Positions 16,215 to 51,371 of a stretch of 64,000 nucleotides of DNA are shown one piece after another (position 1 is the stretch's first letter; every line of letters starts with the position of its first letter). The notes under the pieces were generated by a model that saw nothing but the letters and a program-made list of their open reading frames with translations, was not told where the DNA came from and made no database searches. This DNA is from Leptolyngbya sp. CCY15150. Its GTDB lineage: Bacteria > Cyanobacteriota > Cyanobacteriia > RECH01. Position numbers and translations under genes: made by a program. The DNA lies in the NCBI RefSeq assembly GCF_016888135.1, contig NZ_JACSWB010000289.1, forward strand, positions 80,086-144,085, read 5' to 3'.

Positions 16215-16370
16215 TGGATGATGGGTGCATCCCACGTTTGTAGCTCTCACCCTAAAGTCCTCTCCCAAGTCGGGCAAGGGACGTTGAATCCGGCTTTCCT
16301 TCTCTTGGTTGGGGAGAAGGGGTTGGGGGATGAGGGTCAACTTGCGAAACTGAGATGCTCCCTGGATGAT
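16215..16370. mobile_element. MITE-like element copy A with 8-bp target duplication
   Basis: The 140-bp element (16223-16362) begins GGGTGCATCCCA and ends TGAGATGCTCCC, imperfect 12-bp terminal inverted repeats (2 mismatches). It is flanked immediately on both sides by TGGATGAT (16215-16222 and 16363-16370), a perfect 8-bp target-site duplication. The interior carries a conserved C- and G-rich hairpin (CTTCTC and GGGGAGAAGGGG). It has no coding capacity, so it would need a transposase supplied in trans. A second copy is at 51199-51363. Confidence 0.85.
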
Positions 16371-16450: not shown

Positions 16451-16726
16451 ATGAAGACTGGTTCCCTACGGCAACAAACCGAAACCTCTGAAGTCGGTGT
16501 GTATGATTGCGAGATTCACCTCAAATTTCGGTTGGTTGAAGATAAAGAGGTGATGGCTGTTGATTCAGAGCAACTCCTAGAACTGCTGCTTGAAGCATTG
16601 TCTTGCGGCGCAGATGATTGTCTAGAAACGCTGGATGCTGTGGTTGATGTGCAAGAGACCTCTGAGGTCAATGCATCCCCTCGAATGCGCCGTCAGCTCA
16701 TGCGTTTGCGCAATTCTCTTGCCTAG
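16451..16726 (+). CDS. Small conserved cyanobacterial protein (91 aa)
   Basis: The ATG at 16451 gives a 91-residue acidic protein (MKTGSLRQQTETSEVGVYDC at the start, MRRQLMRLRNSLA at the end). The N-terminal part is probably beta-rich (GVYDCEIHLKFRLVED), then two helices. From memory, similar short proteins occur in other cyanobacteria with the same N- and C-terminal signatures, but I know no function. An in-frame codon at 16385 would add 22 unconvincing residues. It stands alone, 89 bp after the MITE-like copy. Confidence 0.75.
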   Translation: MKTGSLRQQTETSEVGVYDCEIHLKFRLVEDKEVMAVDSEQLLELLLEALSCGADDCLETLDAVVDVQETSEVNASPRMRRQLMRLRNSLA

Positions 16727-51190: not shown

Positions 51191-51371
51191 ATGCACCTGG
51201 GTGCATCCCACTTTTATAGCCCTCACCCTAAATCCCCCTCCCAAGTCGGGCGAGGGACTTTGAATCCGGCTCCCCTTCTCCCTTTTTTTGGGAGAAGGGG
51301 TTGGGGGATGTAGAGCTTGCGCTTCCCGAAGGGTGGGTCAACTTGCAAAACTGGGATGCACCCATGCACCT
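51191..51371. mobile_element. MITE-like element copy B with 8-bp target duplication
   Basis: The 165-bp element (51199-51363) begins GGGTGCATCCCA and ends TGGGATGCACCC, perfect 12-bp terminal inverted repeats. ATGCACCT flanks it exactly on both sides (51191-51198 and 51364-51371), a perfect 8-bp target-site duplication. The interior matches copy A at 16223-16362, with a ~24-bp extra segment near 51313-51333. It carries a hairpin CCCCTTCTCCC with GGGAGAAGGGG and no gene. Confidence 0.9.

Follow-up and report, generated by a model that had tools for sequence, protein, structure and literature searches.

Several MITEs have been described in cyanobacteria. The Nezha elements (Zhou et al. 2008, as cited in PMC10969869 and PMC3733652) resemble the element analyzed here in being short, non-coding and bounded by terminal inverted repeats, a likeness that is drawn from their description in the citing papers. 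The MITEs of Anabaena sp. 90 are 77-541 bp long, form hairpins and are mostly intergenic, and our element shares their size range, hairpin and intergenic setting. They were called type II because no insertion sequence (IS) of that genome had their ends (PMC3542288), whereas the genome studied here does contain an IS that shares the ends of its MITE.

The closest autonomous elements belong to the ISMich2 group of the ISKra4 family, such as ISOni1 of Oscillatoria nigro-viridis PCC 7112 and ISMic1 of Allocoleopsis. They have in common with our MITE the GGGWGCATCYCA-(C/G)TTT ends, target duplications of 8 or 9 bp and cyanobacterial hosts. Unlike these IS, the MITE is 140 bp long, has no transposase and contains an unrelated interior. 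In the ISMich2 group, the transposase is encoded by two ORFs that a -1 frameshift connects, and the Mutator-related prokaryotic (p-MULT) elements have ends of 18-39 bp and flanking repeats of 8 or 9 bp (PMC3942029). A literature search by end sequence returned unrelated papers only, and no report of MITEs derived from ISKra4/ISMich2 elements was found in the collection searched, which is itself incomplete. A MITE with the ends of a known family, ISKra4, is an ordinary kind of thing, and it is well supported in the present case.

Anatomy of the element and its empty site

The window, i.e. the whole stretch of 64,000 nucleotides that was analyzed, is part of contig C289 of the Leptolyngbya sp. 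CCY15150 genome, a draft of 5.75 Mb in 304 contigs. It contains a 140-bp element reading GGGTGCATCCCA...TGAGATGCTCCC between perfect 8-bp direct repeats (Table 1). The preliminary description of this locus had reported a perfect 8-bp duplication and ends that are inverted repeats with two mismatches, and both observations were reproduced, GGGTGCATCCCA and GGGAGCATCTCA differing at 2 of 12 positions. The length of the duplication is unambiguous at this copy, because a 9-bp fit fails (only 2 of 9 positions match). No ORF of at least 80 aa was found in the 140 bp. The element is intergenic; a small conserved ORF follows it, with its ATG at 16452, 89 bp downstream of the element.

Table 1. Coordinates, within the window, of the two MITE copies and their parts.
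Feature	Position	Strand	Remark
Left target-site duplication TGGATGAT	16215..16222	.	Single copy (TAGATGAT) at the congener's empty site
Non-autonomous element (MITE), 140 bp	16223..16362	+	Without ORF of at least 80 aa
Left terminal inverted repeat GGGTGCATCCCACGTTTGTA	16223..16242	+	Similar to GGGAGCATCCCACTTTTGCA, an ISKra4-type end found in this genome
Interior, palindromic, G+C-rich	16243..16342	+	+ strand of the whole element forms one long hairpin
Right terminal inverted repeat GGGAGCATCTCAGTTTCGCA	16343..16362	-	
Right target-site duplication TGGATGAT	16363..16370	.	
Left duplication ATGCACCT flanking the second copy	51191..51198	.	
Second MITE copy, 165 bp	51199..51363	+	Extra block GTAGAGCTTGCGCTTCCCGAAGGGT near the right end
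Right duplication ATGCACCT flanking the second copy	51364..51371	.	

The orthologous site was located in both congeners with the joined flanks of the window copy, a query that by its construction shows the empty site only. In congener G002, the alignment (93% identity over 618 bases) was contiguous through the junction, where a single target copy and no remnant of the element were found. The corresponding region of the other congener, G001, is also devoid of the element, its junction being too diverged to be exact. In view of the exact empty site in G002, the insertion most likely postdates the divergence from this congener.

We considered the possibility that the sequence is a static structured element (an RNA hairpin, an attenuator or a REP-like repeat) with a regulatory role, its mobility being incidental or ancient. 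The whole element folds strongly on the + strand (-61.9 kcal/mol, z -3.35) and more weakly on the other; this hairpin, the intergenic position just upstream of a conserved ORF and the existence of the interior also without the ends speak in favor of such a role. Yet the perfect duplications at unrelated sites, together with the exact empty site in G002, indicate an insertion that followed the species split. Furthermore, the congeners retain the downstream gene though they lack the element, a search for terminator-like sites was negative, and an Rfam search of the window returned one tRNA only, with no match at the element. We regard a static regulatory element as highly improbable.

Dispersed copies and their duplications

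A search of the same genome with the element plus its duplication gave 46 matches, full or partial (E<=0.01). The end pattern GGGWGCATCYCA was found exactly 39 times, some of these being single ends without a linked element, versus 0 times for the reversed control pattern. When the flanks of the copies were tabulated, as the preliminary description had proposed, 8-bp flanking repeats (at least 7 of 8 positions identical) were present in 16 of the 29 copies that could be delimited in this genome and the two congeners. As a control, left and right flanks belonging to different copies were paired, and 0 of these 812 combinations matched. A clean 8-bp duplication was absent from the 13 others, of which some fit 9 bp (9/9 for L024 and L078, 8/9 for L081) and the rest are decayed or cut. 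Copies devoid of duplications or of defined ends, which would have spoken against a transposing element, were not encountered among the well-preserved ones, but the ends of older copies have decayed.

Two MITE copies that break contigs are identical over their readable part and have flanks that pair at 8/8 and 7/8 positions, so that their copying was recent. The fact that contigs break in this repeat family, in a draft of several hundred contigs, could raise the suspicion that the flanking repeat and the ends are a coincidence or an assembly artefact. This is hardly conceivable, since the same anatomy recurs in many independent copies from three genomes and none of the control pairs matched.

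Among 17 copies whose insertion site was inspected, 13 had no ORF of at least 80 aa across the empty site. Two of the others (L012 and L076) fall into a long ORF, inside its first dozen codons, possibly through mis-called starts, and L021 lies near the end of an ORF; L064 and L088, also part of the 17, were not relied upon, their positions being uncertain or at variance with those used for the duplication count. The multiple copies, the duplications, the exact empty site in a congener and the recurrence of these ends and this interior in other genera support the earlier proposal that the sequence transposes and belongs to a dispersed cyanobacterial family, and we conclude that it is a real, recently mobile MITE.

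Insertion sequences with the same ends

The exact pattern GGGWGCATCYCACTTTTGCAAA was present in 106 stretches of a collection of 84,980 genomes, and all the matches listed were cyanobacterial. Many of them are short elements (84-198 bp) flanked by duplications of 8 or 9 bp. Full-length elements with perfect 8-bp duplications were found in Tychonema (1177 bp) and Chlorogloea (1204 bp), and their ORFs scored 269 and 246 bits, respectively, with the model NF033572 transpos_ISKra4 (cut-off 205). Three plasmid-borne elements also have GGGWGCATCYCA ends: ISOni1 (1180 bp, 9-bp duplication GCGTCAGTG), an ISKra4-like element of Kovacikia (1188 bp, 9-bp duplication) and another of Microcystis FD4 (1262 bp, 8-bp duplication). 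All five relatives have two ORFs whose overlap coincides with, or is close to, a T6-T9 run; the Moorena element (L166) has a broken second ORF. The overlapping ORFs fit the -1 frameshift arrangement of the ISMich2 group. Their probable placement in this group rests on the two-ORF arrangement and on the hosts rather than on a tree.

The preliminary description had named ISL3, IS66 and IS256 as candidate families, without choosing between them, and these families, too, make 8-bp duplications. IS256 is moreover a p-MULT relative, though only a cousin, the transposases of IS256 and ISKra4 both being Mutator-related (PMC3942029). However, what the full-length elements carry between these ends is an ISKra4 transposase in two overlapping ORFs, and the Pfam IS66 and ISL3 models scored far below cut-off on transposases with these ends. 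The mixture of 8- and 9-bp duplications displayed by both the IS of this genome and the MITE is also that of p-MULT elements. The families named earlier are therefore not the right ones, and mobilization by any of the three families appears very unlikely.

A potential partner was detected in the Leptolyngbya genome itself. Fourteen contig ends stop about 93-96 bases inside a sequence starting with GGGAGCATCCCACTTT, seven of them being left ends, with the ORF start MTPEDQER, and seven being right ends, with the ORF end ...NTASVNAMLSLRCAYLNGQLAC. This ORF end, as translated from the contig ends, is similar to NIESVSSILSLRCAYLNGQLSS, with which the ISKra4 transposase of Tychonema terminates. By its flank, each of the seven left ends can be matched to one of the seven right ends, five pairs over exactly 8 bp and two over exactly 9 bp. 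These contig ends are a multicopy IS (seven copies) with identical ends, the interior of which has collapsed out of the assembly. Neither NF033572 nor a transposase protein search detected an ISKra4 transposase in the contigs of this genome, as the contigs stop within the repeated IS; both its ORF ends and its relatives point to a member of the ISKra4 family. A larger element with the ends of the MITE, which the preliminary description had suggested looking for, is thus present in the same genome, its interior unassembled, and exists in full length in the relatives. A search for the IS ends in the congeners found none; all that G002 has is a fragment whose end is a variant, GGGGAGCACGTCAC. The MITE and the partner IS share no obvious sequence beyond about 20 bp, which rules out that the MITE is a simple internal deletion of this IS.

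We consider it very probable that the MITE is moved in trans by an ISKra4-family (ISMich2-type) transposase supplied by an element of the same cell, its ends being the recognition ends of this enzyme. According to this scheme, the MITE ends (GGGWGCATCYCA, then about STTTYG) would correspond to the recognition ends of cyanobacterial ISMich2-type ISKra4 IS. The DDE transposase of a same-cell full-length element would bind them in trans and excise the MITE, perhaps via a circular intermediate, as suggested by analogy with relatives. Insertion would occur with a stagger of 8, sometimes 9, bp, and repair would generate the flanking duplication. We infer that a transposase of the ISKra4/ISMich2 type is most likely what actually moves the MITE. 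A dispersed cyanobacterial repeat is hereby given a family, being tied to ISKra4 (ISMich2-type) elements, and GGGWGCATCYCA is a diagnostic end that can be searched in any genome. Furthermore, a cyanobacterial strain in which the MITE coexists with its likely partner IS would permit trans-mobilization by a Mutator-related bacterial transposase to be tested directly.

The hairpin interior and other short elements

The interior of the MITE is a near-palindrome. The same ends enclose a homologous interior at 13 of 108 pattern sites, in Kaiparowitsia, Leptolyngbya RL_3_1, Shackletoniella, Leptolyngbyaceae MP9P1.79 and others. The preliminary description had likened the CCTCACCCTAAA interior to a common dispersed repeat of cyanobacteria. 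It is indeed a dispersed sequence that extends to other genera, but it also occurs without these ends, so that its presence is not enough to define the element. Related interiors devoid of the ends are present in the Leptolyngbya genome as well, including near-tandem copies on contig C292 bounded by CCTCGAAGACCCTCA-like sequence.

The hairpin interior might be an independent module that more than one kind of terminal repeat has captured (ISKra4-type ends in the MITE, CCTCGAAGACCCTCA...TGAGGGTCTTCG-type ends at G000:C292). We find this unlikely; if it were true, a structured, perhaps functional, sequence would ride on several transposases. Of note, the interior-like copies L026 and L028 (near-tandem at G000:C292:130426-130827) and L027 have the borders CCTCGAAGACCCTCACC...GATGAGGG and possibly represent a second repeat family that shares the interior.

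Several MITE copies contain, in place of TC at the same point of one arm, a block of 21-25 bp (ACCCTTCGGGAAGC(GC)AAGCT(CT)AC). This was observed in the second copy of the window (51308-51340) and in L012, L023, L025, L087, L168, L174 and L020, of which L168 belongs to another cyanobacterial genome (MP9P1.79), and L020 carries the block apparently in the opposite arm, the only such case. The 22-mer core of the block has only 4 occurrences in the Leptolyngbya genome, each inside a MITE copy. Either a small dispersed repeat has inserted into the MITE, or the block may mark an old subfamily; both readings are possible.

Other short elements were noticed during these searches. Leptolyngbya sp. FACHB-8 (L102, L109, L150, L159 and others) and Calothrix PCC 7103 (L090) have very short near-palindromic elements, of 89 bp and 84 bp, respectively, which bear these ISKra4-type ends and are flanked by duplications of 8 or 9 bp. 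In Baaleninema simplex PCC 7105 (L098, L107, L112-L114, L119, L120 and others), a different MITE-like family is present in many copies, which have GGGTGCATCTCACTTTTGCAAAAACATCA at one end and, apparently, TTGAGTGCGCCCA close to the opposite end.
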